Source: Tetraselmis striata (taxonomy: Eukaryota; Chlorophyta; Chlorodendrophyceae; Chlorodendrales; Chlorodendraceae). Taken from it: a stretch of DNA of 64,000 nucleotides. The stretch is taken from positions 1 to 64,000 of the forward strand of contig VCJN01001269.1 in NCBI GenBank assembly GCA_006384855.1. Direction: 5' to 3'. A model generated the notes under the pieces. The model ran no database searches, was not told the DNA's origin, and saw nothing but the letters and a program-made list of their open reading frames with translations. The translations under genes were made by a program, and so were the position numbers. Each line of letters opens with the position of its first letter. The first letter of the stretch is position 1. Shown piece by piece: positions 3,501 through 63,092 of the stretch.

Positions 3501-5851
3501 TTGGAGTCGCCGGTAGCAAATGACGGAATAAGGATGGAATCCGAAGCGGGCGTTGCCGCCCCATCAGCGCACCTGGAGTCGCCGTCTTCAAACACGCTGC
3601 ACTCGCTGCAGTTGTCGGTGGTGTACGCCGGATTCGTCATCATCAGCGACGCACCGGGCTGCTGCTGCCCGCGGAACGCCACGCTGCCAGGCGGACCCTC
3701 CTTGCAGGCCGCCGCGACGGCTTCCTCGATGGTGGTGTTGAGGGAAGACGCGGCGGAGCGCGGCGCCTTGCGCGGCACCTGCGATGGATTCCGCACGGCA
3801 GATGCCAGTGTTTAGAGGCGGCAGTGTCCAGGAGCCATGCGGTGTCAGCAGCAACGGTCAGGCTCGCCGCTGCATCACACCGCAGGTCCGAATTGCAGCT
3901 TGGGGAGGGGAGGCAAGCAGCATGCAGCGCAGCCGGCACGTAAACTGTGGGTGTAGTGGCCTCAAATTGCGGGTTCAGTGACACCAGTCCCCTGTTGATT
4001 TATCTGGTAGGTAACTCACAAGAGAGGGGGGGGGGGGATCAAGTGTGGTGGATGGCGTCACATGGCATCGTCTTGGCTGCTCACCTTGGCTGCCTTGGGC
4101 TTTGGCGCCTTGGGGCGCTCGAGCGCCCTGGCGTCGGTGAGGTCCACGTGGACAGAGAGCTGCGTGGCGGCCGCGCCATGGGAGGGATCCGCCTTCACAG
4201 CCGCCGGCCGGACCGCCTTAGGTGCCTGGCCGGCACCCGGCTTTCTGGCTTGGCCGGCGCCGCCGTCGCGCCGCTTTGCCTGCGTGCCCGCAGGTGGTTA
4301 CAACCGCTCTGCCGGAACGGTGCCTTGGCTTTGCACACCCCCCTCCACTCACCCCCTTCCCCTCCCTGTCCTGCATTGGCACCCTCCGCCCCCTTCCGGC
4401 ACAGAGCCCCAGCGTCGCCCCGCCAGCCGCACCTTGCGCTCATCAAATTTTCGTAGAACCTCAACCACGGCCTCAAAGCCGCCCACGGAGGCCAGCTCCT
4501 GCGCCGTGCTCCCCTTCTGTACGGGGTTGAGGGGAACATGTGTGCAGCCATTCATCCCCCCCGCCCCCGCCTCCATCCACCCTCCGCCCCCCATCCGTAT
4601 TGCAGCGCAGCCAAACAGCAGGGCAGGTGCGTACGCTGTCACACGCGGCCATGTTGGCGCCCGCCTCCAGCAGCGCGTGCACAATGTCCCCGTGGCCGAA
4701 CTTTGCCGCCACCAGCAGCGGCGTGCGCCCGCTCTGCGACGCCCAGATTTGCGCTGCTGTCAGCAACTCTGGCGGCCGTGTGGCGGCAAGAGCAGCGCCT
4801 TCCCCTGGTCTGTGTGGGCGTGCCGTTGCCTGCGCCTGTGTTGAGTCTTGCTGCCACCTTCGGGTTAAGGAGGGGGGCGGGGGGGGGGGGGGGGGGGGGG
4901 GGGCACCTCGTCCTCCACTTCCACCTCCGCGCCCCGCCGCAGCAGCTGCTCCACCACCGCCAGCTTCCCGCCCCACACCGCAAAGTGCAGCGCCGTCTTG
5001 CCGCCCTGTGCCGCCGGCCGTGCCACAGCACACGTCAGCCAGCCAGCACCGGGCGACTTGCTGACCCCCGGTATGCTGGGAGGGCCGTGGCCCATGAATG
5101 CCTCAGTGCTGCCAAATGGTCCTGGGCCCGCACACCTGGTCCCGCGTGTGGAGCTTGGCGCCCTGGTCCGACAGCGCCATGCACACCTCCACCTTGCCCT
5201 CCCACGCCGCAAGATGCAGCGGTGTCCGGCCGGACTGCACGCACAACCACAGAGGGGCACACTCAGCTTCCCGGGCCTTACCAGCAGGGGAACGTGGTGA
5301 GGAAGTGCAGCAGATGGATTGGGGAGAGAGGGGGGGGGGGGGGGGATTAGAGGGGCCGCACCGCTGTCTTGGCCTCCAGGTCTGCGCCCGCTGCGCACAG
5401 CTCCGCCACTGTTTTGAGGTGCCCCATGTGCGACGCCACGTGCAGCGGCGTGCGGCCATGCTGCCAGACACACGCGGCGTCGCGCGTTCAGTCCCTCGCC
5501 CCCCCCCCCCCCCCCCCAACCAGCCTCATCCGACCTGATCCTGGCCCCCACTCCCATCCAGGCCAGGGCGATGCAAGTTGATTTAGGGCGCCGCAATGAC
5601 CGGGCCGATGGCGGGTGCAGTGGGGTGGTGGTGGGTGGGAGGAGATCAGACCTTGTCGCGCAGGTTGACGGCCGCGCGCCGCTGCAGTAGCTCGCGCACC
5701 ACAGCCATCTGCCCCTTCTGCGCCGCGGAGTGCAGCAGCGTCCGCCCCACCTGAAAGCCGCGAGCCAGGGGGCGTCGGTGGGCCGACGTAAGCTCGGGAA
5801 TAGCAGCTCTGCTGGCCCGTCTCCTCGGCGAACTGGGGTGAAGCGTTAGTG

Positions 5852-5882
<31 letters not shown>

Positions 5883-5994
5883 CGGGGGGCAGGCAGACCT
5901 TGCCGATGTGGTCCACGTCGTCGTTGGACAGGAACAGCTTGAGGGTGGCCACGTCCCCCGAGCTGGCCGCGGCGTGCAGCTTCGGGATGGACAT
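537..5994 (-). CDS. Ankyrin-repeat and coiled-coil protein, 16 exons, about 960 aa
   Basis: Exons (minus): 5994-5899, 5750-5652, 5460-5362, 5234-5136, 5005-4907, 4733-4635, 4516-4433, 4279-4085, 3778-3573, 3367-3079, 2945-2445, 2158-2081, 1894-1820, 1719-1306, 1082-882, 785-537 (TAG stop). All have AG/GT borders and phase closes throughout. Residues 1-225 are about seven ankyrin units. Five consecutive 99-nt phase-0 exons each encode exactly one 33-residue repeat, with cores such as GRTPLHVA, GRTPLHLAAWEG and GKTALHFA. Residues ~226-455 are Ala/Pro/Lys-rich and probably disordered. A Trp/Asp-rich patch (DGWDDDWEDMDVDEMF) starts near residue 466. From ~575 to the end lies an Ala/Glu/Arg-rich coiled coil. 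The architecture suggests a cytoplasmic scaffold that binds partners through the ankyrin stack and oligomerises through the coil. Partner and pathway are unknown. The ATG at 5994 opens directly into the first ankyrin helix. The last exon could instead splice onward at CAG|GTGCGC near 590, which is less likely. Confidence 0.87.
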
Positions 5995-7659: not shown

Positions 7660-10312
7660 ATGGCGCGGCCGCGGTCGCTCTTCCAGCTGCGACAGCCGGC
7701 GCATCAGCGGCAGCCGCTGGCGGCAGCGGCCCGCCAGCTCGCCGCCGCCGGCCTCCACCTGCTGGTGGCCAACTGGCAGCTGGCACTGCTGGCTGTGACG
7801 GTGCTGATTGCTGCGCACAAGGCGTATCCGATGGTGCGTCCTACTGCTGGGACACGTATACCCTCGAGGGCTGCCTCCACCCCCCCCCCCCCCCCCTCCC
7901 GCTCACAGCACACATCCGCACGCTCACTGGCATCGCGCACACTCTCACATGTACCTACAAGCACCAACTGCCTGCGCATGCCACCTATAGCGGGGCACAC
8001 CAGCCAGTAGAGCGGGCTCCTTGGTGCTGACATGCATGAGCCATTCATGGCTGTTGGGCTGAGCCATCGCCGCATTATGTGCAGTGGGCCGGCAGAATGG
8101 GAGGCGCACCTGCAGCAGGTTCGTCAGGCAGCGTGGAGGTCGCTCGCGCGGAGGGCACGGGAGGCTTGCAGGAGGAGCCGGGCACTGCGTCGCCGGTGCA
8201 GCCGGAGCGCGGCGAGTCAAGGGGCTGGCAGCCGGAGCACGGGCCCGACCTGTTCTGGGCCGCGCCGGGTCCTGGGGCGTCTGGCGGTGCTGGCGACAGG
8301 GCGCCACGGGGGCGGAAGGTCAAGAAGGGGAAGAAGGTGCGGGGGATAGCTGGGCTGGCAATCATGCAGAGGGGTGCATAGGAGGCAGGCTGGGACCATC
8401 ACTGAACATCACTGAACATCAACAGTGCGCAATGATGAACGCACGGAACCCGTTGGATGTGGCTGCACGTGCAGTGGCAGCTCGACAGTCTCCGTGTCAG
8501 CATTCCCACCCCTGTTCCGCTAACTGACTCGCCCGCTCGCCCGCCCGCGCCTCCCCCGGCGCCCATGCAGACCATCTGGGTGCCGTACATGCCGCCGCCT
8601 CCCCGGCACCCGCCGCCGCCTCCCTCCCCGCCGCCGCCGCCCTCCCCGCCGCCGCCGCCCCCGCTCAGCGCCGACGCGTCCCTTGCCATGCTGCACGTGA
8701 CAAAGCCGGACATGCTCACTGTCATCGCGATACAGCCCGCTGCGGGGGGCGCCCTGGGGTTCACGCCCGGTGACACGGAGTACTGGGCCGAGGCGCGCCC
8801 CGCCCCGCTGCGCCGCATGCCGCCGCCTCATGCCTCCAGCGCGCAGCGGACGACGGTGCTGACGACCTGCGGACGATGCCGCGGCCGGCAGGTGGAGAGC
8901 GACGTGGAGGCGGTGTCCATCTCCTGGCTGGCGACCAACCCGAGCGCGCGCGTGTAGCGCTGTCGGTGGCGCACCCGGAGGGCAGCACCGGGCTGGGCAG
9001 CATCGCGGGCGGACTGCCGCAGGGGCTGCGGCACTACGGGGACCACGGCGATCGGTCGGCGTGGGAGCCGGCGCTAGAGCTGGGGCGGCCGCCGGGGCGC
9101 GCGCTGCTGCAGGCGCACGGCGCGAGCGACTTCGTCGGGCTGCTGGTGGGCCTCAACGTGGTGGCGCTGCGGGTGGAGGTGCCGCTGCAGGCACGCAACT
9201 ACATGCTGGCCATCCGCCGGCTGGAGCGCGCGGAGCACACGCTGCTGCGGGAGCTGGACGTGCGCGAGGGCCACCTGCACCCGCCCTTCAAGCCCACCAC
9301 GGACCATTACACCGTGCTTGCGGACGGCTTCCGCACGCTGTCGCTGCGCCTCACGCCCTTCAGCGCTCAGCCCGGCGTGACCGTTCAGGCGCGGGCTGCT
9401 CCCATCCCCCCCCCCTTGGCCCACCCTCTCTTCCCCCCACCCGACTCGACGCTTCAACCCTCACCAATGCCTCCCCCTTCCTCCCGGCAGGTTGACAACA
9501 AGCAGCTCAGCGGGCTTCATGTGGCCGCGGGTCGGGGGCTGACGCATACGGTGCAGCTGGAGCCGGGGCCGTCTGGGGAGTCTATCACCGTGCCCATCAA
9601 GGCGCGACCCCCCCCCCCTTCCCCCAAGAAACAAAATTACAACTCTGTTCCTCCTAGGCCCCTGCGACCCTCCCGTCCGTGGCTTGGCTGAGCCCCCGCC
9701 TGCGCGCGCGGCCGTGCAGGTGACGGCGGAGAAGGGCTACCGCAGCCGCACCTACACCATCACCGTCACCTTTCCCGCGCCCCCGCCGCCCCCGCCGCCG
9801 CCGCCTCCCCCGCGGCCGCCCCCGCCGCCCAGCCCCCCGCCGCCATCGCCCCCGCCCCCGCCACCCTCCCCGCCGCCTCCCTCCCCGCCGCCACCTTTCC
9901 CTCCCAGGTGGGTACTCCCCCCCTCTCCCCCCCCCCCCCGGAACTTCCCCGCCCACTCTTTGTGACATTGACTCATTCCCGCGGTGTCACAGTGGCCTTT
10001 GCGGGTCGCTGACTGCGGCCTTTGCTGTCGCCATGTGTGGCTGTGTGGCCGGGCGCCTTTGCTTCGCTGCGCCCAGCCCGCCGCCGCCCAGCCCGCCGCC
10101 CCCGCCGCTCCCCCCGCCCCCACCCCCACCCCCGCCGCCCCCCTCCCCGCCCCCGCCCCCACCCAACCCCCCGCCCCCGCCGCCCGTGCTGCCCTCCAAC
10201 GCGCAGCTCGCGCAGCTGCACCTCTACTACTACCGCGGCTTCCTGCAGGAGAGCATCCCGCTGCACCCCGCCTTCGACCCCGCGGTCCATCGCTACGAGG
10301 CGCACCTGCCGT

Positions 10313-10343
<31 letters not shown>

Positions 10344-13300
10344 CCCCACCTCTTGCAGCGAGCTAGGGTCTAGGGCATCAACCCTAAAATCCCCTCCTCC
10401 TGCCCCTCTGCCAGGCACGGGCTCGCCGATGTGGAGGTGTTCTTCCTCACCAAGGCGCCCTCCGCCACGGCGGCGCTCACGCACACCCTGCAGGAGCTGC
10501 CCCAGCACCCGGCGGCCCCCATGCGCGTGCGGCTGTGCGCGGAGCCCGGCTGGCTGCCGGTGCCACGCGGCGAGCTAACAGGGCGGGTGGTGGGCAAGGA
10601 GGCGTTTACGGCGCTGCGAGCGTGGACGTGCCTGGCGGCGGAGGCGCCTCCGGCGGCGTGGCGCAGCGTCACCGTCGCCGCCATCTGCGCCCAGGTGCGC
10701 GCCCGGGACGTCCGCGCCTCCGCCGTCCCATGCATGCGGCGTGCGGCGTGCGGCAACAGGCGCACAAATGCCATGATCAATCGTCTCATGGCGGGATGAT
10801 GTGTCTGGCGAGGCACGTGTACATATGCGCCTACTGGGGCACGGGCTTGTGTCCTGAGTCTGGGGGTGCATGGGGATGTGGGTGCTGGCCTGAGGGCGAT
10901 TTTTGTTTCATGACGAAGCCACTCGTTTGTGGGATGTAGGATCGCCGTTCTGCTCGTGCTCGTAGGACGCGGTTCTGTCCGTAGACAGCGAACGGTATGG
11001 CGTGCACATAGTGGTAGGGTATGGCGCTGCAGACACGGGGTTAGCATGCACGTCGTGCCGTAGCCACGCGTTGGGCTCGCCGTGTATTATTGCTTCTGAA
11101 CCCTCGCGAGGGAGGGGAATGCTACGTTCAAAACATGCCTAACACAATTCAGCACGAATATGGCACGGAATATCAGCGTCAGTGGTGCATAATTGTTCAT
11201 TGTGTTCAGCCCGTGAGCCCAATCATCATATGGCACATGTTGGCAGCTCTGTCATGACGCAAGCACACCGCGCCTGTGAAGTGCGGCCCGGTAGTTCCTG
11301 GCGGCCGCCGTGTGCCTGCGGGCGGCTGCGGCCTGCCCTGGTAGCTGGAGCCCTGAGGGTCGGCGCTGGTGCTTTTGCCTCAGGAGGGCGCGGCGGGCAG
11401 CCTGCTGTCCGGGTTTGAGCTGGAGCTGCAGTGCCCCCCGGGGAGCTCCCCGCCGCGCAGCCTGCTGGAGGTCACGCTCAGCACCACCGTCGGCGGGGCG
11501 GGCGGGCGGGCGTCGAGCACCGTCTCGGAGGCGCGGCTGGACGGCGCGCAGCTGGACGTGCCCGCCGGGGCGCTCGCGCTGGCTGGGCACGCGGGGCGCA
11601 GGCGGCTGGGGGAGGCGGCGGCGGAGGGCTCCGCCGCGCTGCGAGTCACCCTTGCGCCGGGAGTGACCAACACGCTGCGCCTGCGCGTGACATCGCAGGT
11701 GGGGGCCATTCGCCATTGGCGCGAGCGAAAGACGAATGCGGGACTGATTATGTTCGGCTTTCGCCCTTTTCCCCATAGCGGTTGAGCGCACGTCATGTCA
11801 TGTCATGTCATGTCATGTCATGTCATGTTCTTATACAATCGTTGAGACTATCTAGTGCAGGCGGGATTAGAGAGAGCAAAGCCGGGTGCCCCCGTAATTC
11901 TTTTGGCACCTGTGCGTGTAGTGTGCTATCAGAGTGCCCTACGTATAGGTTGGTTGGGATGGCAGACAGGAAGGCACAGGTCAGCGCCCCCAGTCGCCCG
12001 CCAGCGCTGACCCGTGTTTGGCGCTGCGCCCCGCAGGACGGCTCCAGCTCGGAGGAGTACACTGTCGCCGTCCATGCGTGGCCCGAGGGCCCCAGCCCGC
12101 CGCCGCCGGCGCCCTCCCCGCCGCCCCCGGCCAGCCCGCCGCCCCGGCCCCCAGCCCCGCCGCCCCCGCCCTCCCCCCCGCCGCCGCCCCCACCCAGCCC
12201 GCCCCCGCCCAGCCCGCCCCCCTTCCCCCCGTTCCCCCCCAGCCCTTCGCCGCCCCCGCCGCGGCAGCCCACCTCGGCGCTGTCCGCCTGGAACAGCCTG
12301 CACGGGATTGACCGCGCTGTGGGCGCAGAGCATCGGTGCGCTGCCCCTGGCGACACTGACCGCCCCGTGCCTCTGAGCACTTATCAGCGTGTCTCTTGAG
12401 CATTGACCGGTGTCGCACGTGCGTGCACTCAATGTTGCGGTATACAACTGGCAAACACTCAATAATCCCCAATGACATTCGGTCATTATTGACATAGCGC
12501 CTAGTACTAAAGAATCGTCCGTTGTTGTTCTCGACGTGATGTAACTGCGTGATTGCATGATACATATGATGCCTCAGTGTGCCGTTACAATTTTATATGG
12601 TTTGCGGGGTCTAAAAATTATGAATTGTTTTGCATCTTTGCGTCGGAATATTCGTAATGTCGTTTTAGAAGTTTTTTACCATTTAGCTCGCGGACCGTAT
12701 TTAATTTTGTGGAATGTTATATGTTTAGTAGCCAAAGTAGGGACATTCCTTCCCAGGTGTCATTCCGTAATGCGCAGGGACACTCGATGGGTAATCGCAT
12801 AACACCTGCACGGCTCCCGGCCATCTGGCAACGCGGCTGACTCCGCCGGCGCCGGGACGGTCGCTGTGGATGGCTCCCCAGAGGGCAGGTGCAGGCGCTG
12901 TCGATCGGCCTGTGGATGACCTCCCGAAGCAGCGGGGAGCCGATGCTGGTGGGCGCGCCCCAGTGGCGCCGCCTCTTCCGGAAGGCGCCCTTCCCGGCGC
13001 TGCAGCCGCCCTTTGCGCCCGACACGTACGCGTACCGGCTGGAGGTGCCGCAGCGTGCGCGCGCGCTCTCCCTCACCGCTGTCCTGAGAGGCGCGGCCGC
13101 CCGGAACGGGTGCGTGGTCAACGCGATGGGCGCGCTGGCGGGGAGCGGGGAGGCGACGGAGCCAATCCAGCTGGAGGTGCGCCTGCGCCTGCGGCCGGCA
13201 CTTTAACAGGCATGCATACACATCCACCCATCCATCCATCCATCCATCCACACACACACACACACACACACACATAATATATTTCTATGATACTTCTATG

Positions 13301-16300
13301 ATATATAGAATGATGTATTATTATATACATTCATAATACATTATTATATTTAATCATATATATTATTATATAGAATGATATATTATTATATATAATCATA
13401 GAATGATAATTCGTATTATTTTGTTTTTATATTTTAGTGAAAATATAAGTGATAGATTTAGGGGATATTGGAGTTTGAATGCAATCAGTCAAACCACAAG
13501 CAAAACTACTAGGCGTATTGCCAGGCGGGTGCAGCGACAAGGCGAATTCTGGTGCACTAGTTGTCATGGAAGATGCATAGCTCGCTTATTCACATTGACA
13601 AGTGCGGACCCGCCAGCGATGCGGTGAGTGTATTGAGGGTCTTGTAGATGCGGCCTTGACGCTGACGCCCGCTGGCACCTGTCTCCCCCCCCCCCCCCCC
13701 CTTCTCTCCTTGCGCGCCCGCGAAGACATATTTGGACGTGGCGCCCAACAAGGTAGTCCTCCAGGTGCAGGACGGCACGGGCGTCCGGCTGGGACGGCCA
13801 TACGTGATTTGGGTCTCCCGGCGACCTCCGCCGCCGCCGCCCCCGCCGCACGCCCCCGGCCGGCCGCCACGTCCGGCCCGGCCGCCGCCGCGCCCCAAGT
13901 CGCCTGGTGTCCCCGGGCAGCCGCCCTCGCCCCCACACCCCCCGCCGCCCCCCAGCCCCCCTCCGCCGCGCCCGCCCAGCCCACCGCCCCCGAGCCCTCC
14001 CCCGCCTCCCCCGCCGCCCTCGCCCCCGCCGCCGCCCTCCCCGCCGCCCCCCCGCCCGCCCGCACCGCCCTACGCGCCCGTCCTCCCCGACAACACCCAG
14101 CTCGCGGTGCTCTCCACCTCCGCGGGGCACCTGCAGCCCGCGTTCGACCCCGCCGTGTACCGCTACCGGGTGGAGGTGCCGCACGACGCAGCGCGCGTGT
14201 CCCTCGCCTACATGACCATGGCGCCCGCGGCGTCCATCGCCTTCACGCTCTCCTCCCGCCAGGCCTGGGAGCAACACCTGGAGGTCCCTCCCCTGGACGA
14301 GGTGCGGCAGCGGCAGGCCAATCACCGCTTGAGATGCTCCGAAACCCCGAAACCCTGGAAACCCTTACCTGACCGGCATACCCAAAACCCTATTTTCGTA
14401 ATCCCGCTCCCAAAGCCCTAACGTGTCGGTAGCCCTGATCGCAATATGAGAACCTAAACCTATGACCTAAACGGACAAAGGTTTAGATGACCCCACAACA
14501 TGTAAGCCCTAGGCTTCGCAACTTCATCCCTAGACCCTAAACCCTTAATAGCCCTACAAGTGCGGCAGCCTTGGTGTATGCTCCGTCTCATCTCCGTGCG
14601 GCGCCCTACTCCCCAGGAGGCGCCCGAAGAGGCCGGGGATGGGGGAGGGGCAGAGGCGGGCGGCGCCGGGGGGCGCCCGTCCGCGCGGCACCAGGTGCGC
14701 CTCCCGCGGCGGGACCGGCTGCCGCGCGGCAGGCGCCTGCTAGGCGAGGGCCGCTCCCCGGAGTTTGAGGTGGCGGTGGGCAACAGCATCGTCGTCCGAG
14801 TGGCCGTCACCTCCCAGGTGGGCGCCATTTCGCCTCCAACCCCCCCCCCCCCCTCCCTCTTTCTCCTGAACACTGCGGAAGGACCCGCTGCCTGCGGAAG
14901 GAGTCCCTCATCGTGTGTGGTGAAATAAAGTAAAGTCTGCCCCGCCGGGTCATCGGCCGAAGCTGCCCCAGCACCTGAGCTCTTGCGCCAGCTGCAGTCG
15001 TAGGTCTGGCATAGCCATTAGACCGTTCCCTCATTCGATCTACCCCGAAGGGCTGACGCGTAAACCAGGTTAACCCGATATTGCCCTCAACCGGGAGAAC
15101 CGGAAATCGAACCGGGGACCTCTCGCACAAGAGACCTACGCTTGTCTACCAAGCGGACAATGAGGCATGTGTGGTATTGCCGCCGTAAGCATAGGTCCCG
15201 ACGCACTCATAAGACCCTTTCCCTTTATAAGCATCAAATTGAGCTGGCATGCCACCGATAAGAACACTCGGTCAAGTCGCGCTATAGGCTTCGTCCACAC
15301 TCGCGAGGCGCTGAAGCGTTAGCAGGAGCACGACGAGATGGCCAACAACTTGTGCAGTCAGGCAGGGCAGGCTCTCCTTCGCAGCAGTGTTCACCCGTAT
15401 GCTGTTGGGTCCAATGAAGCCAACTGCGCTCGACCCGAATGTGAAAAGGTCTCAAAGTATGTCAGCGCACACAGTGAACCTAGCGAAGGATCCCCGCTCA
15501 GTGGCGCAGACCACTGCACTCTTTCCGCGACCAGCAGGCCCAATTGATTGCGCGGTGCCATCTTGAAGGCTGCACTCCGAAGTCGGAACGAATGTTCGGA
15601 TGGGGCGATGCCGAAACTCAGCCCGTGCTTCTTTCGGACCCTGGAACCCGATGCGGTGGTGCGGCACTTACGCCGCTGCCCCCACCCCCGCTGCCAGATG
15701 GGCGCCACCGGCCGCCACTACCTCGTCATGCTTCACCGCCTGTCGCCGCCGGAGCACGCCGCCCTGGAGGGGTTGGCCGTGCCGGGCGCCGCCCTGAGCC
15801 CCGCCTTCGCGCCCAGCGAGCAGGAGTACGCCGCGGAGCTGCCGTTTGGGGTGGCGGCCGCCACGGTCACGGCGTGGTGCGCGCCCGGCGCCGCCATTGA
15901 GGTGGCGGCCGCGGAGGGCCGCGTGCGGCTGCGGTCCGGGGAGCAATCGCCCGCCATCGCCGTGCCGACTGGGGGAGCCACGTACGCTGCTCCTTCCCCC
16001 CCCCCCCCTCCCTCGCCTTCCATCACCCCCACCCTCCCTCCCTCTCACCCATTCGCCATGACATCCAGGCCGGCACCACTGCGAATGGCAAGCTCGCAGC
16101 CGCATGTCCGTGCAAAAGTGGTCGACGCTCTGTTGGAGTCGATTGCTCTACTTACACCCACAGGATGTTAAGTGATGAGCAAGCAATGGATGTCAGTGAC
16201 TCTTGCGTATATGTCCATGTCTATTATATGTCCATGTACATGTGTATGTATATGGCGATGGCAATTGCAATGGCGATGGCTATTGCTCTGTATATGTGTA

Positions 16301-18422
16301 GGTATATTTGTATGTGATTGTGTATTGACATGACACGACAGTAAATGTATATTTATATGTATGTATATGTATGTGAATGAGTCTATGCATATATATTTGT
16401 GTATGCATATGTATATGCGTATGTCTATTGTACAAGTCCTTGTCGATGTCTGCATATGTAAATATACATATATGCATATATCCTATCTACCGTTTGATGA
16501 TATGAATAGTACATACGGGACTACCATGTATTGTTACGTTGCACCGACGCGAATTGACACAGAACCCGCCGCGAGTCGGAAAGCTGGGCACACACTTATT
16601 CACACCCCGTCGCCGCCCGTTCATTCCTCTGCTGGCGCCCGCTGCCCACCCAGGCGATGTCGTCGCCGGTGCTTGGTGCACATCATGCTGCACGCACCGG
16701 CACATTGCGACACTAGTATACCTGCCAGTATCTGCTCCGTGCACATGCGCCGCTTCCCTAAGAAAGTAACAGGTTCACCTGTGGCCATGGAGGTAACGCA
16801 AGGCTCGATGGTTCCACAATGATTGGTCGATTGGGCGCACACTGTTCATAGGGCGCTTGTTGGCGGACGTGGGCGGGCGACTTGACGCGGAATTTACCGT
16901 AACATTTGTGTTTGTGAGGCCAAAGTAAGTCGACTATATTTCTTTCCGTCAACGAGTCGGATGATCCGTTTGTGATTTGTGGTGGTTTATCTCGATATAT
17001 TTTTCGACAAATAACCTCTTTTCGGGGTGTCAAACACAATAATACACGGCGGACACAGAGCGTGGTTTCGGTGCTGAGTGTGCGTGCGTGCCGCCTCCGC
17101 AGGCTGACGGTGACCGTGGTGGCACCGGACGGTGTGACGGCGGTGGAGCACACGCTGCGGCTGCGCCACGCGCCCGCGCCTCCCCCGCCGCCATCGCCGC
17201 CCTCGCTCCCGCCGCCGCCCCCGCCGCCCTTCCCGCCCCTGCCGCCCGCGTACCCTCCGTTCCCGCCCCCCTCCGCGCCGCCCGCGCCCCGGGTGTCGCG
17301 CGCCGCGGGCCTCCAGGTGAGCCCCCCCCCCCCCCCCCCCCCCCCCCGCCTCTGCTTCAACCTCCTCTGTCTCCTCTATCTCCCCTCTATCACGACAAGA
17401 TCCGACCACAAGTGCACAGATGCAACATGAGTTTGTTGGTGGAGTGTAGGGGCAGTAGAACATACCACGCCGCGGGCTCTGAGGTGGGCTCTGAGGTGAT
17501 GGGAAGGCCGCGAATGCGAACCTGCCCCGCCCGCCAGAGATCCAGTGCCGACGCCAGCGCAGCGGGTACACACATCATGAGTGTTCCCATGCGGCGATGC
17601 CCTCCTGATCGGGGGGCGGATGCTCCGGGCTGTCGAATGCGCGCCGGCCCGCCCCGCGGCAGGTCGCTCGCCGCCGTACAACCCGCGCGCATTTGGCGGC
17701 TCGGCATTCACCCGCACTCTCAAAAGCCGTCCGCAGTGCCCCACCCCCCCCCCCCCCCTCTATGCTCCGCTTCCTCGTGTCTTGTTATTAGTGCCACCGC
17801 GTCCCATATCTCAAGATGACAACCATGTGGCCTGTCGATCCACAGCACCGACCGCGCATGTATAACCGTAGCTGCAAGGCCAGGGGCCGGGGGGGCGGGG
17901 GGGGGGGTCCATTAACATTCCCGCCCCCACCGATAAATGCTACCCCTGACTGTGCCCTCCCCTGGCCCCCGCGCTTCCCTGGCGGCATGACAGGGCTTGC
18001 TTGCGGGCATCGACGACCGCATGTACGAGGAGCGCCGCTGGTTCCTGAAGAGCATCGAGCTGCCCCACCTGCGGCGCGCCAGCTGGTCGCCGCCCTTCTC
18101 CCCCGGCATCTTCAGCTACCAAGTGAGTTGCCGCCCGGGCGGCCGCTGCGCCAACAGTGTCCCCGCTGCCCGCCATGAGCGGGAGGGGGGGGGGGGGGGT
18201 CCTGACTGGGCGGCGGCGTGCTGCCGGGTTGCTGCAGGTGGATGTGAAGCACTCGGTGGCTGCGGTGGAGGTGGTGCCGGTGGCGTGGCAGCCGCGGCTG
18301 GTGGAGCTGGCGGTGGACGGGCGGCCGGTGCGCAGCGGGGAAGCAGCGGTGGTGCCGCTGGCACAGGCGGCCGGGGCGGCGTTCGCCGACACCCGCGTCA
18401 CCGTAACGCTGCGGCCGCGGCA

Positions 18423-18455
<33 letters not shown>

Positions 18456-19360
18456 CTCCGCGCTGGCGCAGCCACGGACGTACAGCCTGATGTTGCGCCG
18501 CGCGGCGTCGCCGCCGCCGCCGTCTCCGCCGCCGCCGCCGCCGCCGTCCCCGCCGCCGCCCCCCGCCCCCCCGCCCCCGCCGCCTTCCCCCCTCCGCCCC
18601 GCCCGCCCAGCCCGCCGCCGCCCTCGCCGCCGCCGCCACCCCCTTCCCCCCCGCCCCCTTCCACCCGCCGCCGAACAGCCCCCCGCCGCCGCCTCCTCCG
18701 CCGCCGCCCCCGCCGAGCCCACCCCCGCCGCTGCCGCCCTCGCCGCCGCCCCCGCCCCCGCCGCCCCCGCCGCCCCCCGAGTCCAACAGCCACCTCGCCA
18801 TCCTAGTCGCCTCCCAGGTGAGAGCGCCCCCCTCCTCCCCTCCTCCTCCCCCCCCCCCCCCCCCCCCCCCGCCCTTCCCATTCTCCCCTGCAGTTCACCG
18901 CTCTTATGCCGCCACCACCCCGGCGCTCATTCCTGTGCTTCAGGGCTCGCTGCACCCGCGCTTTTCTCCCGACATCTTTGAGTACGTCCTCAAGGTGGAC
19001 CACACGGTGGGTTTGCCCCCCTCCCTGGCACCGCCATCCACCCGACACCGGGCGCTCCCTTAATTCTCTGCCTCCATGCTCGACGCCATGCTGACGATGG
19101 TGGCCCGCGCTGGCGGTCAACCCCCCCCCCCGCCCCCCCCCCGGCAGGTGGAGGCGCTGGACTGGGTGGCGCTGCCAGCGGCGCGGGCGGCGACCGTGAC
19201 GGTCGACGGGCGCGCAGTGGATGGCGCGACTGGCGCCCTAAACGACGTGCCGCTCCGCCGCGCCGCGGGCCCCGTGACCGTGGTGGTGACGTCGCCGGAC
19301 GAGCGCCGCCGGGCGACGTATCTCGTGGAGGTGCGGCGGCTGGCGCCATGGGAAACATAG
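7660..19360 (+). CDS. Cadherin-like beta-sandwich repeat protein with Pro-rich linkers (18 exons, ~1720 aa)
   Basis: Exons: 7660-7833, ~8116-8336 (start unsure), 8571-9388, 9491-9601, 9720-9907, 10077-10310, 10415-10694, 11384-11698, 12037-12318, 12895-13176, 13726-14301, 14617-14817, 15698-15981, 17103-17316, 17994-18122, 18238-18817, 18944-19006, 19148-19360. The N-terminus has an Arg-rich start and a hydrophobic stretch at residues 31-52, a signal anchor or signal peptide. About eight units follow the cadherin-like beta-sandwich pattern: L.xL.V..G.LxPxFxP....Y.v.V, ending near Y.v.V.R. Clear openings are GHLQPAFDPAVYRYRVEVP and GSLHPRFSPDIFEYVLKV; a clear ending is RTYTITVTF. Linkers are PPSPPPP runs, typical O-glycosylated spacers of volvocine extracellular proteins. 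A cell-wall, matrix or surface role is inferred. Oddities: exon 3 changes frame near 8950, and exon 16 changes frame twice within its Pro-rich part (about 18590-18670). Introns after exons 3 and 4 appear to be GC-AG. Confidence 0.85.
11788..11828. repeat. Pentanucleotide GTCAT microsatellite in an intron
   Basis: About eight GTCAT units lie in the intron between the exons ending at 11698 and starting at 12037 of the cadherin-like gene. No other signal is seen. Confidence 0.9.
13206..13450. repeat. CATC, CA and AT-rich low-complexity tract in an intron
   Basis: A run of CATC units is followed by (CA)n and then by AT-rich sequence built from repeats of AATGATATATTATTATAT. It sits inside the intron between the exons ending at 13176 and starting at 13726. 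It contrasts sharply with the GC-rich exons. Confidence 0.85.
14930..15168 (-). mobile_element. Possible tRNA-derived SINE (tRNA-like head plus unrelated body)
   Basis: On the minus strand 15168-15093 resembles a tRNA: a D-arm-like part with CTTGGTAGAC (A-box type), then about 30 nt later a T-arm-like CCCCGGTTCGATTTCC (B-box type). Acceptor-stem halves do not pair, and the anticodon region (TTGTGCG) has a pyrimidine after GTG, so a working tRNA is unlikely. Sequence continues about 160 nt beyond the T arm with no tRNA end, as in tRNA-headed SINEs. It lies antisense in the intron between exons ending at 14817 and starting at 15698. No second copy was found in the window, so a decayed tRNA gene is the alternative. 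Confidence 0.4.
16170..16500. repeat. Degenerate TATG/TGTA microsatellite in an intron
   Basis: An imperfect purine-pyrimidine alternating tract (TATATGTATG-type units) fills part of the 1.1-kb intron between exons ending at 15981 and starting at 17103. ORFs here are low-complexity Tyr/Met/Ile/His translations. Confidence 0.85.
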
Positions 19361-41772: not shown

Positions 41773-41806
<34 letters not shown>

Positions 41807-42439: not shown

Positions 42440-42471
<32 letters not shown>

Positions 42472-45533: not shown

Positions 45534-48500
45534 TCACTGTCGCGTAGGCACGCGCGGCGAGATCCACACCATCACCTCCTGCAGCCCCGCGCTGCTGTTG
45601 ACCCGGAAGCCGTACGCCTGGTAGCGGCTGTCGATGCCGTCGCAGCCGTGCAGGTCCAGGTGCTGCAGCGACATGTCCACCAGCGTCTGCAGCCCCCCGT
45701 CTGTCACCTGCCGCCGCGCCGCCACAGCTCAGGCGCCGCCCTGCCCTGTGCCAGCCCCCATCCCGGCACACCAAAACCCTCCACACCGCACTCGCCTGCT
45801 AGCGCGCCGAGAGAGCGCGCAGGTTGGGCGGGGGAGGGGGGGGGGGGGGGGGGGGGGGGAGTTGGGGGGGGGGGCGGACGGAACCAGCGTGTAGGAAATA
45901 CCTCCGGTTTGGAGCCCCCGCGAACACAGAGAGGGAAACTTTAATTGAAAACACAGCGGACAACGGCAGCGCCGGGATACCATAGCGATGACGACGCATG
46001 TCGGGATGGCTGGGCCGACCGGTGGCAGTTGTTGCCACACGGGCGGCCATCGTCTGGGCCGGTGCCAGGGTGCGATCGCGGCCTCTCTGACACGGGCCCC
46101 CGCAAAGCCCCGGAAGCCCAAACACCCCAAAACCAGTCCCTAATTGCTCAGGAGTTCATGGAGTTAGGGTATGTAGGCTTTTCAGGGTATATCATAACAC
46201 ACCCAGGTTTAGGGTTTCTTTGGCGTAGGGTATCATCTGCATGGCGCGCTGGCCGACTCACTACGAAAGGGAAGGAGGGGGGGGGGGGGGGGGGGGGTGG
46301 AGGGGCGCACCGCCGTGGCCTGCAGGTCGAGGCTGGAGAGCGAGGTGCAGTGCGAGAGGTGCGCGAGCGCACCGTCTCCGACGTGCGTCGAGCCGGAAAG
46401 CGCCAGGCTGTGCAGCGCGGGCATGCGGCGGCCCAGGCCCCGGAAGGAGGCGTCCTCCAGGCCGTCGCAGCGCAGCAGGGCGAGGCGGCGCAGCGAGGGC
46501 AGCGGGCCCAGCGCGCCCCAGTGCGGCTCCGTCACGTTGGGCAGGTCCTGGCGGCCAAGGCGCAGAGGCGAGAGGATGGGGGCTTAGGAGCGACCCCGCA
46601 ACGCGGCCGACGCTGCATACCACCCTGCCTTATGGCTGGTAGCGGGTAGGTAACGGGCAGGCACATCTCTCCCCTCCGAGCCGGGCGGGGGGGGGGGGGG
46701 GGGGGGGGGGGGGGGTCGGTCCATACTGAAGGACGTTACCACCAGGGTTGGGCTGCAATCCACTTTCCAGTACTGCAGGCTGCAGTGCAGGCTGTAGTAG
46801 CACTGAAACTGTTGATTATAGGGAAGGGCGGGACAGTGAAGGGCATATATTTGGGGCACTTTGGGTAACTGCACCGCAGCCCCTTTTCGGGAAGTACTCC
46901 TGGCTGCAGTGCAGTAGCTTAACTGCAGGCTGCAGTTTTTGCAGTCTGCAGTGCAGTAGATACTGCAGTCCAACCCTGGTTACCACACAGTAGCCAGAGA
47001 GTTTGATGTCCAATATACCCTGAAAGCATTCTGACTTTATCTTACGGTATCACACCGGCAACCGGTATGCTGTATGTAATACACGCGGTACAATACGAAT
47101 AATTATTATTAATAGTAATTAAAAGAATAGAATAGCGAATTTCGAAACATGATACAAATAGAAAAACGGTAGAAGAAGGGTGGCAAATTCATACACGGCG
47201 AAACACCGCCGTTCAAAATTAATTGCCGCCCACGCGCTAGTACCCCTTGAGATTGCCTATGCGTCAGCGGTGTGCAGAATGCTTTTGCTTATTTGCGCTC
47301 ATACTCTTGCATGCGGTGAATTACGGACACCTGTGACTGGGGAACTGAAGACGAAGTATGTAGCAGAGCATGCAAAAGAAGGGGATCGCTGACTACTTGA
47401 ATCGTCGCCAGGCGCGGGGAAGGGGGAGGGAGGTGGGGGAGGGGCACCTGCAGGCCGAGGCTGGTGAGCGCGCCCAGGCGGGAGAGGTGCGCGAGGCGCG
47501 TGAGGTGGGGCGTGGCGCCCAGGTGCAAGCTGTCCAGCCTGGGGAGCGCGGCGGCCAGCGCCGCCAGCGTCTCCTCGCCCAGGTGGGTGGGGCAGTCGAG
47601 GCGCAGCTCGGTGAGGGTGGGGTGCAGGCAGCCGGCGACCTCCGCCAGCTGCTCCGCGCCCAGTGAGCGGCAGTCCATGTGCAGCACGCGCAACTTGTAC
47701 CACGCGCGCACCGCGCCCGGCAGGCACACGCCCGCGATGTTGGGCGCGTTCATGTACAGCTCCTGCGCGGCAAAGCGCGGTGGGTCACCGCAGCGCCAGG
47801 GCGAGGGGGGGGGGGGGCAGCAGAGGGTCAGCCACGCAGCTAGGCGCGCCGGGACCGCCGACGCTGGCAACACAACGGCACACGCTACGAGCCTCCAGCC
47901 TCTTGCTGCGCAGGGAGGGGCCAGGCGGGGGCCCAACGAGTCCCGTCGATGAGGACAAGGCATAGGGAGTCGTGGCGATCCTTGCCATCCTCCGCCCACC
48001 CTCCAACTAACACCCCCCCCCCCCCCTTCCCATTGGGCCCGTGCCCCCTTGCCTACGGTGTCGCAAACACCCTCACTAGCAGGTACCAGGTGCCTAGTTA
48101 GGAGGGGCTCCATGAAAGTAGTATGGACGCCGACTCAGGCTTTGGCGATCAACTAGCAGGTGTCACAGTGCCAAGCCGCCTGGGAGAAGCCACCATCGGA
48201 TGCGGCATAGAGTCCGGCGCCGGCGCGGTGATGAGCGCCCTGCGACTAGTAGAGGCTCGCTCTGCCAGCCGGAGGTCGAATACATACCAGCGTAGAGATA
48301 GCGGAAGAACGGCGAATCTTCCTAACCGCAGGCCTCATGGAAAGCCCCCATGAAGGCGTAGTATAACGGGCTTTCTTTATAGGTGCGCCGGCACCGCCCG
48401 TAGGGTTGCGCCAACATGTCACTCAGCGGCGGACACAACACTGTGCGGCGTCCTAAGCGGAGGGGGCAGTCCTCAGGCAGCGCGGGCCACTCCGCCCATC

Positions 48501-49283
48501 TCTGTAACCCAGCCACAGCCGTGCGCACGTACCTGCAGGTTGCGGCCAATGCGGCCGCAGCCCAGCAGGTGCACCCCGCGGTGGTCGATGTCCGGGACGT
48601 CGCGGATGTCCAGGTGGTGCAGGAACAGCCGTGAGATGTTCATGAACGCCTCGTTGGTCCACTGCGCCGGCGCCCAAGCAGGCGGGCAAGCAGGCAGGCC
48701 GGCGGGTCTGGGTCAGCACGCCGGTGCCGCGGGTGGCTAAAGAGCGGAGCCGTCGCGATTGGGGCCACGGTGGGAAAGCGCGCAGGGGTGTGATGGGACA
48801 CAGGTGGGTTATCGGGTGCCGCCAGTGGGAAGAGGGGGGGGGGGGGGGGGGGGCGCACCCGCTTGCAGCCGCGCGCCTTGAGGGATTTTAGGTCCAGCAG
48901 GCCTATCGTGAGGTGGTTGAGGATGAAGTCCGACGCCTGCCAGGTGGGCGCAGCAGCAGCAGTCAGGTACGCCCAACAGGCAGATGGCACCAAGCACGGG
49001 GTCCGTCAGGTGAAGGGAGGACTTGAGGCTGGGAGGGAAGGGGGAGGGTGTGCGGCGGCGGTGCGGTTCGGTGTGGGTTTGGGTGCGGTGTACACGCACC
49101 AGGTGCAGGCCGCTGATGTCCAGCTCCGTGATGGTGCCGAGGCGGGAGACCATGCTCAGCGCCAAGTCGGACAGGCCGGGGCATCCGCTGATGTTGAGGG
49201 AGGTGAGGCTGGTGAGCTTGGGCCACACGATCTGGCAGGCGCAGAGGCAGCACAGGAGAGGGGACAACGGGGCGAGAAGAGAA

Positions 49284-49317
<34 letters not shown>

Positions 49318-52015
49318 AGGGGGAGATCATTTGCCACCACCATGAGGGGAGGCAGGTAAAGGGGGCCGTCGGACAGGGGGAAGGGTGATTATCAACGTTG
49401 CAGCATGCGTAGAGCGCGCGCACCAGCATCGAGATGTCCGAAAGCAGGCGGCAGTTGGAGAGGTCGAGCTTGCGTAGGCGCGGCAAGCACGGCATCGGCA
49501 TGTCCGCCGGCAGGCTGCCCCAGTGCGGGAAGTTGTAGTTGCCCGACAGCGTCAGCTCTGTTAGGCGCTCCAGCCTCGACAGGAAGGAGCCGTGCACCTG
49601 GGCAGCAGCAGCAGCAGCAGCGGTGGCGGCGGTGGCTGCACGTCAGCTCCAAGCGGAGGTTGCGGATATGCCCATCGCTGCCGCGACTCAGCCGCGGGCT
49701 GCGGCCACCCATGCTGCGGACTCATGCTCCCCCCCCAACCCGGCAACCTCCACCTGCTGCCGTATCGCGCACCGCAGCATTGCGCCCACTGCCAACTGGG
49801 TGATCGGCTGGTCTCCATGCCCGAGTTCCTGACTACCGCCCCAAGCACCCGCAGGATGCACGGCCCATCAAACCCGCCCGTGCCGAATCAGTCCGCTGAG
49901 GCTTCCGCTGCATGGCGCGCGGCATTGGTGGGCCCATTTGCACCGCACCCGTGCCAACACCCACTAACCGACTCATTTTGGGTTTATCAGCCTTCCACAT
50001 ACGCCCCGACGGCTGTCAGCACATTCCCTGCTTGGGCACTGATACCAAGGCACCATCAAGAGGTGGGGAGAAGCCTGGGGGGAGTGGTTGGGGGGGGGGG
50101 GGGGGGGGGAGTGGAGGGGGCAGTACCAGCGGGCATCCCGTGACGTCGGTGGCCTCCAGGTGCGGCAGGTCACTGAGCAGCATGATGCCGGTGTCAGTGA
50201 GCTTGTTGCAGCGGCGGAGGCCCAGCCGCTGCAGCGACGGCAGCGTCTGCACGATGGTGCCTATGCTGGTGTCCCGTAGCTGGTCGTTCCCCTGGAAGAG
50301 CCAGCCAGCCAGCCCCAACAGTCAGCCCCCCACCTCCACACCCCGTGTGCTGGGCAGTGTGGCCGGAGGAGCAGCAGGAGGAGTAAAGGGGCGCGGGGGG
50401 GGGGGGGGGGGGGGGGGGGGGCACCTGCATGTCCAGCTCGGTCAGCCTGCTCAGCGGCTGGAGCACGGTGAGGCCAAGGGGTCGCACCAACTGGCAGTCG
50501 GCGAGCGAGAGGCGGGTCAGGCTGGGCATGCCCACTGCCAGGGAGGCCAGCACCGCACTGTGCCGGGCCCAGGGGGCGGGAGGGGGGGGGGGGGGGGGAG
50601 GGGGGAGGGGGCAGCCGTCATCAACTCAGCAACCTGAAAGTACGTGTGTGTGTGTGTGTTGGGGGGAGGGGGGGGGGGGGGGGTCTGAGTGTGTGTGTGT
50701 GGGTGTGCATACAGGTGCCGGCGGCGTGAGAGCACCGCCGACGGGTATTAGAACCCCGCCTGCCTGCCAGAGGTCGAAAACAGACGAACAGCAGCAGAAC
50801 AATAGGGAATGTGCCTACGGGTTCCATCACGCGGGCCCTATTTGATGTATCAAATGCATATCTACAGACAGAAATAAACGAGGGGCGCCTGCACACTGGC
50901 ACCACCGCGCTGGGGGCCACATTCGCACAGTCCGGCTGCAGTGTGCCCCACCGACCCCGACGCCCACCTTCGCAACCTTCCTACACAGCAATGCATGCCG
51001 CTAAGCCACCCCCCTCTCCCTCCCTCCCCCGCCCCTCCCCTCCCTCCCTCTCTTGGTCGGTGAGCTCCACTGCCTGGCTTAATTGGCTTCACTCGCCCAC
51101 GGCTGGGGAGGCAAGCGGAGGAGCGGTGGCGGGGAACGAGCAGGCTGGCGGCGCACCAGTCCACGCCCATGCAGCTGCCGCGGTACGCGAGGCTGGCGAC
51201 GCCCGCGAGGTTGAGATCCGTCAGCTGCGGCAGCTCCGTCAGCTGCACCAGGCTCTCGCGCACCTGCACCAGCTCCTCGTGGCTGGTGATACGCGGCAGC
51301 GTGCGCCCCGCCGCCGGCGTGGTGTCCAGCGCCGCCAGGTTGGGGAAGCGCGCCACGGTGCGGCCCAGCACCAACGCGCGCGGCGCCAGTCGCTCCAGCC
51401 TGCCGTCGAAGTTCTCCGCCCACCAGCGCGATACCAGCCGCACCGCCGGCGCGTCGGTGCGGCTCACGCGCGCCAGGGCCTGCCGCAGGATGGCGGGCGG
51501 CAGGGCGTCCCAGTGCCCGCAGCACAGGGACAGGGGGGACGCGCTGCTGGGCGCCGCGGCCGACGACGAGGCGGTGGCGTTCGCGACCTGCAAAGCGCCA
51601 CGGGAGGGGCGAGTTGCCCCCCCTGCCTCGAGACAGAGCCAAGCCCGCAAGCCCGGAACGAACCCCCCCCCCCCCCCCCCCCTTCCCCGTCCCGAGAGAT
51701 TTTTGGTTGTCGCGGGGGTGAACGACGAGCTCGGATGGGGAGGGGGGGGGGGGGGGGGTTATAGTGTGTGCGCCCATAGTCTGCCCACCACGTTACAGCA
51801 CTCGCGCGTACATAACTGGGGGGGCAGCGGCGCGACCCTCCGCCTGGTGCTGGCGGGGCTCTCAAGGCGGCGTAGGGACCCGAGCGGGGCGGGATTGCGG
51901 GGCGGGGGGGGTGAGGGGCCGAAGGGGAAAAGGGGGGGGGCACCTCGCGGCGGTGCAGCGAGGCGGCCTCCGCCGCGGCCGCGCGGCGGTGGGACTTGGA
52001 CTCTGTCTTCGCCAT
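45534..52015 (-). CDS. F-box and leucine-rich-repeat protein, 11 exons, about 688 aa
   Basis: Exons (minus): 52015-51944, 51587-51157, 50557-50425, 50291-50127, 49597-49397, 49231-49100, 48936-48859, 48661-48533, 47762-47448, 46547-46311, 45707-45534 (TGA). All junctions are AG/GT and phase closes (one phase-2 junction, all others phase 0). Residues ~50-88 (WDALPPAILRQALARV followed by VRLVSRWWAENFDG) look like an F-box. After it come about 15 leucine-rich repeats of the Cys-containing AMN1/FBL type: LTRLSLADCQLV, LQRLGLRRCNKLTDTG, LRKLDLSNCRLLSD, LTSLNISGCPGLSD, LRRLALLRCDGLED and LQHLDLHGCDGID. The family role is a substrate receptor of an SCF ubiquitin ligase, with Skp1 binding the F-box and the LRR arc holding the target. 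The target is unknown. Missing small exons in the long introns cannot be excluded. The ATG at 52015 is the only good start upstream of exon 2. Confidence 0.87.
46743..46978. mobile_element. hAT-type MITE, 236 bp, 8-bp target-site duplication
   Basis: The termini are inverted: CAGGGTTGGGCTGCA on the left and the complement of CAGGGTTGGACTGCA on the right, 15 bp with one mismatch. Direct copies of GTTACCAC flank it exactly (46735-46742 and 46979-46986). An 8-bp target duplication and CAGGG-type ends are hallmarks of hAT DNA transposons. There is no transposase, and the interior is rich in CTGCAG palindromes (e.g. CTGCAGGCTGCAGT), so it can fold back strongly. It lies in the intron between the F-box/LRR exons ending at 47448 and starting at 46547. 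Confidence 0.9.
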
Positions 52016-52506: not shown

Positions 52507-52543
<37 letters not shown>

Positions 52544-61355: not shown

Positions 61356-61494
61356 TGCAAGATGCGGAGGGGGGGTGTGCTGGTACAATTATTCCTACAG
61401 GCTGTGCTCGCAGGGCTGGCCACCGCAGCCGTTGAAGACTACCTACCATCACCTATACAGGTGCCCATCCCGCTGCCGGCTGCCCTTTCCGGGC

Positions 61495-62928
61495 TCAGAA
61501 GCGGCCCGGGATGAGGGTGGCCGCGCACGCAAACACGAACCCATCCAGGAAGGCCTGCACGTGGTCCGCCGCCTGCGCGCCCTCCGCCCCCGCGCGGCGA
61601 ACCACCATCGCGCAGCGCACAATCAGCTCCTGGAACTCGTCGTAGATGAGCTCCGTGTTGCGGTTGTTCTTGTGCCGGCTGGCGACCACCTCCGTCACGC
61701 CGGTGACCTCCTGGAAGATGTCGCGCACTCGGCGCGGGTCCAGCTGGGCGTCCATCACATCGCTCGCCTGCACAGTGGGAGCGGGGCGGCTTAGTGTGGG
61801 TGTCATGCTCGTCTGCCGTATACAGCAATGCACCTGCCGCCCCGGAAGCGTCAGCTTCAAGGGGTGCCCCGACTTGGTACATGAAGCAGTGTTACCCGCC
61901 CTTAGTGTCCGCGTGCGATCTCGCGCTGCCGTCCAGCAGCCCTCAAAAAAGTCGCGATGTCGGTTTGGACATGTCTCTTTTACTTTGGTGGTGTGAAATT
62001 GATTCGTTATTTCAAATTTCACTAGGGAGGTCTGGATACCATGGGACGCCAGATATAAATCATTGGCGATGAAATATGGCGATAAATACGACATATGTTA
62101 TTGTCCTCATATCTATATTGAAATTGTTACGGGTACCCGGGTTGGATAAGGCCGTTCTCGTAAATAATAATGCGATGCTTGCAGAATGCTTTGGCAATTT
62201 GCTTGATGACTATAACGGAGCGTCGCCTACCCAGGGCTTTCCGTAACTGGATTGCTGCCTAAACGGCCGTCGTAGAGACGCTGCAAAAAAAAATGACTAG
62301 TGCCCGTCCTGTCCCCGGGGCGAAAAAAAATGCGATGCTCACATTCCGCCGTACATTATTCGTACCATGTTTGGTATACTACCAATAATGAAACGGCGCA
62401 GTTGCAGAGATTCATTGGGCTCTAATGAATGTGTCGCAAACAGCACGGTTGCATCTCGTACATTACTGGAGCAATGAGGGTGCCCGCCTAGCGCATTTCG
62501 GATGATCCGTGCCCCCCTCCCATCAATAAGGTGCCATGCCCTACTGCCAATTCCGTTGGTGAGCCAGCGTACAAACCCAGGCACAGCCAATCGGCCGACG
62601 ACCACCGAAAAAGGCACTCTGACATCTACAATAATCGCAGAATACCCTGAGTGGGGTTTCTAGGGCTCTTAGCCTGCGGCACCTACCAACACCCCTCGCA
62701 GTCCACACGACCCCTCGGGCACCCACAGCTGCACTGGACAAGTATACAACCCCCCTCTGCGTGGTGTCTATGTAACAAGGCTGCCTGCCCTCCACTCTAC
62801 TCGCAATTTTAATGGTTTCGGAGCATCATCACCCATCGCCTCCCCCCCCCCCCCCCCCCCCCCTCTCCCCCCCTGCAGCGCATGTTTGGATTGACATAGG
62901 AGGCGGGATTATACTCCCGTGCGCCCTT

Positions 62929-62965
<37 letters not shown>

Positions 62966-63092
62966 GGGGGGGGGGGGGGGGGGGGGGCACCTCCAGCATG
63001 CTGAGGAAGTCGTTGTAGCTCATCACGGGGCCGCCCATGAGTTTCTCCTCCGCGGTGATGTCCGTCACGTCCTGCCCGAAGTGCAAGAAGCA
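61495..63092 (-). CDS. C-terminal exons of an EF-hand-like protein
   Basis: Two exons on the minus strand join in phase 0: 63092-62991 and 61767-61495 (stop). The first encodes FGQDVTDITAEEKLMGGP then MSYNDFLSMLE. The second encodes DPRRVRDIFQEVTGV, then TELIYDEFQELIVRCAM and a hydrophobic C-terminus (AFLDGFVFACAATLIPG). The pattern of two helices with MSYNDFL and IYDEFQEL is that of degenerate EF-hand pairs in algal calcium-binding or axonemal proteins; the calcium-loop acidic residues are incomplete. No start codon is found upstream of 63092, so at least one 5' exon is missing. It may be joined to the exon at 63811-64000 or lie beyond the window. The intron between the two exons carries GTG plus a C run right after the donor and holds a LINE end (62180-62328). 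Specific function is unknown. Confidence 0.6.
62180..62328 (+). mobile_element. Very short LINE 3' end with 11-bp target-site duplication
   Basis: 149 bp matching the last part of the LINE copies at 6597-7105 and 43340-44109 (TGCAGAATGC...CTTTCCGTAACTGG...CGTAGAGACGCTGCA), with an A-rich tail. AATGCGATGCT flanks it at 62169-62179 and 62329-62339. It lies in the intron of the EF-hand-like gene, in the orientation opposite to that gene. Confidence 0.88.
62933..62962. repeat. (GT)n microsatellite next to a G run
   Basis: A dinucleotide run of about 14 units precedes a G run (62966-62988) that ends at the splice donor of the EF-hand-like gene. Confidence 0.9.

Follow-up and report, generated by a model that had tools for sequence, protein, structure and literature searches.

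The first 64 kb of contig VCJN01001269.1 of the green alga Tetraselmis striata (assembly GCA_006384855.1), a stretch of 61% GC called the window in what follows, contain an ankyrin-repeat gene, a leucine-rich repeat (LRR) gene and other predicted genes whose introns often carry a long run of C on the sense strand, directly or shortly after the 5' splice site (the donor). The first-pass annotation of this DNA had listed 14 such donors. The runs are present at the places it named, and 13 of the 14 donors were reproduced exactly by a gene finder built as a generalised hidden Markov model (GHMM), under both of the masking settings described below. The exception is a GC-type donor at 26671, in whose place the GHMM prefers 26653, putting the C run at +35. 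The C-run introns listed in the window are given here; Cn is a run of n Cs on the sense strand, a number with a plus sign is the position of its start in the intron, and "GHMM" marks a donor of the earlier list that the gene finder recovered.

4734..4906, minus: intron of the ankyrin-repeat gene; donor 4906, GTG directly followed by C25 (4879-4903); GHMM, Ank
5199..5361, minus: predicted intron of the same ankyrin gene, absent from the earlier list; C16 (5330-5345) at +17
5751..5898, minus: intron of the ankyrin gene; donor 5898, C30 (5853-5882) at +17; GHMM, Ank
9383..9490, plus: predicted intron; C10 (9406-9415) at +24
9602..9692, plus: predicted intron with GC donor; C11 (9608-9618) at +7; GHMM
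9908..10076, plus: predicted intron; C13 (9927-9939) at +20
10311..10414, plus: predicted intron; GTGCG, then C27 (10316-10342); GHMM
15982..17102, plus: predicted intron; C13 (15996-16008) at +15; GHMM
17317..17993, plus: predicted intron; GTGAG, then C26 (17322-17347), with a G11 deep in the same intron; GHMM
26671..26711, plus: earlier-listed GC-type donor 26671; C25 (26687-26711); ambiguous, the GHMM donor being 26653
27170..27642, plus: predicted intron; GTGCAG, then C23 (27176-27198); GHMM
45708..46310, minus: predicted intron of the LRR gene; C21 (46277-46297) at +14; GHMM
48662..48858, minus: predicted intron of the LRR gene; GTGCG, then C20 (48834-48853); GHMM, and a weak LRR_6 match below the cut-off
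49808..50126, minus: predicted intron of the LRR gene; C20 (50090-50109) at +18; GHMM
50292..50424, minus: intron splitting a leucine-rich repeat; GTG, then C27 (50395-50421); GHMM, LRR_4
51588..51943, minus: predicted intron; GTG, then C9 (51932-51940), with a G20 deep in the same intron; GHMM
62966..62990, minus: donor 62990; GTG, then C22 (62966-62987), followed by a CA repeat; GHMM

Two C-run introns of the ankyrin gene, those with donors 4906 and 5898, and the intron at 50424 are supported independently of the GHMM by the predicted protein repeats that are restored when they are removed. Once its introns are taken out, the ankyrin gene (591-5994, minus strand) yields an ankyrin array (Ank, E = 6.2e-37) that spans these two introns, whereas the stop-to-stop frame 4868-5845 alone gives an ankyrin match of only 1.6e-5. 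In the LRR gene (46-52 kb), the sequence joined across the C-run intron at 50424 matches LRR_4 with E = 8.5e-14, and the best stretch crosses the junction. The stretch joined across 48858 gives an LRR_6 match of E = 0.0045.

Long runs of C or G are a general feature of this genome. There are 57 C/G runs of at least 9 in the window; in the sampled genome, those of at least 10 occur at 0.54 per kb, and 200 kb of it contained 101 of them compared to a single A/T run. Because C/G runs are common everywhere, the question is not the existence of C runs but their attraction to donors and their orientation. The predicted exons (62,927 bases) contain 12 C runs and 1 G run of at least 9, some of them in mispredicted exons. 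These were not counted as coding, since several sit at exon ends and one, a C33, is read as a missed intron. The C33 lies at 49284-49316 (minus strand) between two LRR stretches, within a predicted exon, and probably marks an intron that the gene finder missed.

A strand-specific excess of C runs at donors

The GHMM was self-trained on the window plus 250 kb from elsewhere in the genome (314 kb), with eight 3 kb loci added for the codon step; training consisted of codon-usage clustering and 12 rounds on 216 segments. Every C or G run of at least 6 was scored zero, every run of at least 4 in a second setting (harder masking), and the donor matrix was restricted to positions -3..+3, so the runs were unable to attract predicted donors directly. 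The resulting coding model is plausible, with a third-position GC of 0.89. The window itself is part of the training data, and two seed frames had been cut at the earlier-listed donors 4906 and 48858, a small circularity that should be diluted by the training rounds. The gene finder makes errors, such as the one near 49284-49316, and the introns throughout are either predicted or derived from homology.

Three sets of introns, 379 in total, were examined. These are 75 from the window, 262 from a genome sample (250 kb from elsewhere, chosen without regard to runs) and 42 from kinesin genes, located via exon matches to Pfam PF00225 with no reference to runs. In the kinesin genes, donors were assigned manually on the sequence. 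Before the count, 12 of the 54 kinesin stretches were dropped (6 duplicates, 5 without an intron and 1 unclear). Among those kept, the donors of L037, L059, L063, L078 and L086 are less certain, and L063 is the only C-run case of the five.

A run was called proximal if it was at least 9 long on the sense strand and started no more than 25 nt from the donor. By this definition, 41 of the 379 introns have a proximal C run and 2 of the 379 a proximal G run. The window contributes 17/75 with C and 0/75 with G. When its 36 intronic C runs were placed at random within their own introns, a mean of 4.2 fell in the proximal zone, and 17 was reached in 0 of 20,000 simulations. The comparison of C with G gave the same outcome outside the window, with C in 17/262 and G in 1/262 of the predicted introns of the genome sample, and C in 7/42 (P = 4e-5 under a model that places runs uniformly along each intron) and G in 1/42 (P = 0.50) of the kinesin introns. 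The donor-proximal bias of sense-strand C runs is thereby confirmed as real and as reaching beyond the window. The window overstates its frequency, at 23% of introns compared to 6.5% in the sample and 17% in the kinesin genes.

The bias is one of position as well as of strand. In the sample, C runs have a density of 4.2 per kb at a distance of 0-10 nt from the donor and of 1.5 at 11-25 nt, followed by 0.31, 0.76, 0.52 and, beyond 200 nt, 0.24, while that of G runs stays at 0.16-0.68 per kb throughout the intron. Deep in the introns of the three sets, over 60 nt away from either end, the two kinds are balanced (44 C and 54 G runs), in agreement with the earlier observation that deeper runs occur in both orientations and that the bias is a donor-proximal one. 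Within 40 nt of acceptors, C is preferred in the sample, though less strongly than at donors (16 C and 4 G runs), and is not preferred in the window (3 and 3) or in the kinesin introns (0 and 1). T is hardly enriched upstream of acceptors, and any pyrimidine tract in this genome appears to be C-based.

Patterns were also counted over the whole assembly (224,097,584 bases, 2,903 contigs). For gapped patterns, forward-strand sites were compared with a reversed-pattern control; minus-strand sites, which were counted many times over, were not used. AGGTG followed by C13 occurs at 1150 sites versus 13 for the reversed pattern. AGGTGAG followed after 0-15 nt by C12 has 198 plus-strand sites versus 10 in the reversed control, and the same pair separated by 40-55 nt has 105 versus 44, a range in which runs with an earlier start are included too. 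Upstream of eight pattern loci (L001-L008), the coding score was positive in 4 and negative in 2, with no open frame in the other 2, so that not every AGGTG+C13 site is shown to be the donor of a coding exon. Raw motif counts around all runs were set aside as too diluted and confounded by the G context.

Tract length, slippage and neighboring genes

The long runs occupy the same place as short C tracts. In a length series on 262 introns (220 better-supported predicted introns and the 42 kinesin introns), the ratio of donor to interior density for C tracts of length 3, 4, 5, 6, 7-8, 9-14 and 15-40 was 1.8, 3.7, 4.6, 7.1, 14, 16 and 15. Under harder masking the same classes gave 1.7, 3.2, 4.5, 10, 9, 27 and 13, which is the same rise with a noisier plateau. 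G tracts showed no notable enrichment, with ratios of 0-1.9 on small counts. Along 194 introns, C tracts of at least 4 starting at +4..+15 were present in 30%, a figure that falls to 7% by +64, and G tracts of at least 4 were flat at 4-7%. Runs of at least 9 and tracts of 7-8 number 35 and 11 at donors and 30 and 10 in the interior (P = 1). This equal ratio means that the location bias seems to be set by length 7-8, and the long runs look like donor-proximal C tracts of the general kind that slippage has lengthened.

Lengths also differ between copies of the same sequence. Two copies with 0 mismatches over 474 aligned nt (L037 and L039, on contigs C2788 and C332) differ in a run of G32 and G24, respectively, and two further pairs of copies, 97-98% identical, differ as C28/C31 and C18/C26. 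L037 and L039 are recent duplicates or unmerged haplotypes.

The remainder of the window holds several other predicted genes. The gene at 7660-19360 (plus strand) would encode a protein of ~1,790 residues with repeated stretches between long proline and serine-proline blocks, which we take to be reminiscent of volvocalean wall glycoproteins; one of its frames has a Pfam Cadherin-like match below the cut-off (19.1 bits vs 24.2). The protein predicted at 20718-24576 (minus strand) contains an MPN domain of the Abraxas type (PF21125, E = 1.2e-10). The predicted protein at 24764-28841 (plus strand), whose gene carries the C-run intron at 27170, has a hydrophobic stretch, and the 224 of its residues that were searched gave no match to Pfam. 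The GHMM extends this gene to 42835, which is probably a merge.

Competing explanations

The bias is limited in position and in orientation, it is present in short tracts, and the bodies of the introns are mostly unshared, all of which fits a C-rich enhancer acting on the sense strand. We give a probability of about 0.5 to the reading that the tract is a C-rich intronic splicing enhancer at the donor, with C/G homopolymers slipping freely in this genome. In such a system, the first ~25 bases of the intron would be a C-tract zone that helps to define the 5' splice site. A poly(C)-binding protein of the KH-domain kind would bind the tract and stabilize the U1 small nuclear ribonucleoprotein (snRNP) at the donor. 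Selection would retain C tracts near the donor and disfavor G tracts there, and C/G slippage could stretch the tracts that reach ~7 Cs to 10-33 at little cost. Poly(C)-binding splicing factors had been one of the options raised in the first-pass annotation, and they are the best-fitting one, given short tracts that are donor-proximal and strand-specific and given the available part of a mammalian donor screen (PMC8789036); the effect on splicing and the protein that reads the tract, probably of the KH type, are what we infer for this genome.

It is doubtful that, in a class of donors, the tract goes further and, from +3/+4 onward, replaces the bases +4 to +6 that pair with U1 and U6. Such donors would then consist of AG/GT(G) plus a protein-read tract, a mode of recognition constitutive genome-wide and rapidly evolving by slippage.

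Several results weigh against the enhancer, or against the location-blind lengthening that accompanies it. About 70% of the 194 introns are without a C4 tract starting at +4..+15, so the tract cannot be essential. Compared with other donors, those with a C tract are no weaker at -2, -1, +3, +4 or +5 (P from 0.15 to 1; for C at +6, P = 0.027), and hence there is no sign of the tract compensating for weak sites; there is only a trend toward an intact AG at -2,-1 in donors whose +4..+6 is CCC (12/16 versus 116/228, P = 0.07). The donor-to-interior ratio levels off unevenly under harder masking, and with C5-8 tracts as seeds, lengthening is commoner at donors (35/47) than in the interior (30/100; P = 0.004). 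In the whole-assembly counts, AGGTG followed by G13 (1158 sites vs 664 reversed) is as common as AGGTG followed by C13, and AGGTGAG followed after 0-15 nt by G12 is in roughly twofold excess (118 vs 57 reversed). Part of this G-run excess near AGGTG(AG) may be due to a G-rich context.

The main rival of the enhancer is a passive one, in which the zone near the donor is C-rich for some other reason (because cryptic GT donors, G-driven pairing or A and T are avoided there) and so provides seeds for slippage, the tracts themselves being functionless. This is possible, if on the whole unlikely. Introns without a long donor run are still C-rich at +7..+11 (0.41 vs 0.34 at +42..+60), the density of GT is lowest at +7..+16 (27.5 per kb, all other bins having 33-61), there is a shortage of A, T and G3 tracts close to donors, and run lengths vary between copies. 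However, base composition predicts only ~1.7-fold enrichment of C4 and 2.5-fold of C6, compared to the 3.7 and 7.1 observed, and the ratio of observed to expected GT, 0.73 at +7..+16 versus 0.76-0.94 elsewhere, is a weak dip.

Structure in the DNA or during transcription would be an improbable cause. Here, a G-quadruplex on the template strand or an i-motif on the coding strand would slow the polymerase past the exon and so aid splicing, or would limit R-loops. The orientation is consistent with this, since G lies on the template strand, and the intragenic G tracts of Caenorhabditis elegans favor the non-coding strand (84 vs 47, in the portion of PMC2211496 at hand). Set against it are the enrichment of C4-C6 tracts, which are probably too short for such structures alone, and the lack of an orientation bias among deep intronic runs. 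Simple RNA folding, which concerns RNA and not DNA structure, likewise gave no difference between C and G in the accessibility of 35 run donors, with a mean unpaired probability of 0.369 for the native C run and 0.343 for a G run (P = 0.24). Deleting the run lowered it to 0.292 (P = 0.006) and an A run gave 0.370; as C, A and G runs are alike in this respect, the folding effect is not C-specific. Nor was a donor C run associated with a G run farther down its intron that could pair with it (4/37 vs 29/225).

A mutational process acting on transcribed introns had been suggested as well, and it fares differently for lengths and for location. Slippage fits the run lengths, which vary between copies. 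This variation and the high genome-wide frequency of C/G runs speak for a transcription-associated process producing sense C runs in introns, but as the source of the bias such a process has little likelihood, because deep introns have no sense bias and the excess of C tracts is limited to approximately the first 60 nt. It is more improbable still that an introner-like mobile element with a 5' C run made these introns, even though GTG or GT followed directly by the run recurs across different genes. With the runs masked, similarity to another of the 371 introns compared was seen for only 5 of the 41 run introns, and in one pair both members have runs; with so little shared body sequence, the run introns are not a repeat family. 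An error of sequencing or assembly deserves an equally small share of belief. Homopolymers are error-prone, and the length differences between identical copies could themselves be errors, but the placement is donor-specific and strand-specific and short C4-C6 tracts share the bias. Also, where a sequence is present in duplicate on separate contigs, both copies have the run in the same position, which makes an assembly artifact unlikely.

Relation to known systems

In vertebrate introns, G-triplet intronic enhancers situated just inside the donor act in splicing. The T. striata tracts resemble them as a homopolymer-like motif inside the donor and differ in being made of C instead of G. They also resemble the mammalian enhancers read by PCBP/alphaCP (hnRNP E) proteins, which are intronic sense C tracts near splice sites. 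When pentamers were screened immediately downstream of the donor in an SMN2 minigene, C-rich motifs were stimulatory, and CCC ranked highest at the first position of the library; the readers presumed by the authors are PCBP1/2 (PMC8789036, in the part available). According to the accessible text of PMC4797308, alphaCP/PCBP proteins promote splicing of cassette exons via C-rich tracts upstream of acceptors. As putative enhancers, the tracts described here differ from the mammalian ones in being found in many introns, mostly on the donor side and as homopolymers of up to 33.

Long C/G homopolymers far above chance are also found in Caenorhabditis, where they are kept by DOG-1. The C. elegans genome has 396 poly-G/poly-C tracts, 4 of them in exons, with no location bias within introns and a moderate orientation bias (PMC2211496, same portion). 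In T. striata, unlike Caenorhabditis, there are 0.54 runs per kb, the donor bias is strong, and the orientation bias is found mainly near donors. Among green algae, Chlamydomonas reinhardtii and Volvox carteri have tandem repeats, mainly GT/AC, with a U-shaped distribution toward both intron ends (PMC3887541, in excerpt). The concentration at intron ends is alike, but here it concerns C homopolymers, on one strand and at the donor end. CA/TG repeats of at least 5 units have no donor bias in T. striata, with 1 at the donor end (1/19 starting within 40 nt of the donor), 1 at the acceptor end and 17 in the interior. Among the matches listed in the open-licence PubMed Central literature, taken by titles and abstract openings, none dealt with sense-strand C runs at the donors of algal introns, and the available part of PMC11228838 has nothing on C runs.

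For gene annotation and read mapping the donor C tracts are a warning, as donors often abut homopolymers in this genome. In about 1 in 10 of the introns examined, slippage appears to have drawn out a putative enhancer until its runs are visible to the eye, and the genome provides a natural length series from 4 to 33 together with nearly identical gene copies whose runs are of unequal length. This opens the question of whether C tracts at donors may be read constitutively outside animals, and of how the slippage of repeats interplays with selection on splicing.

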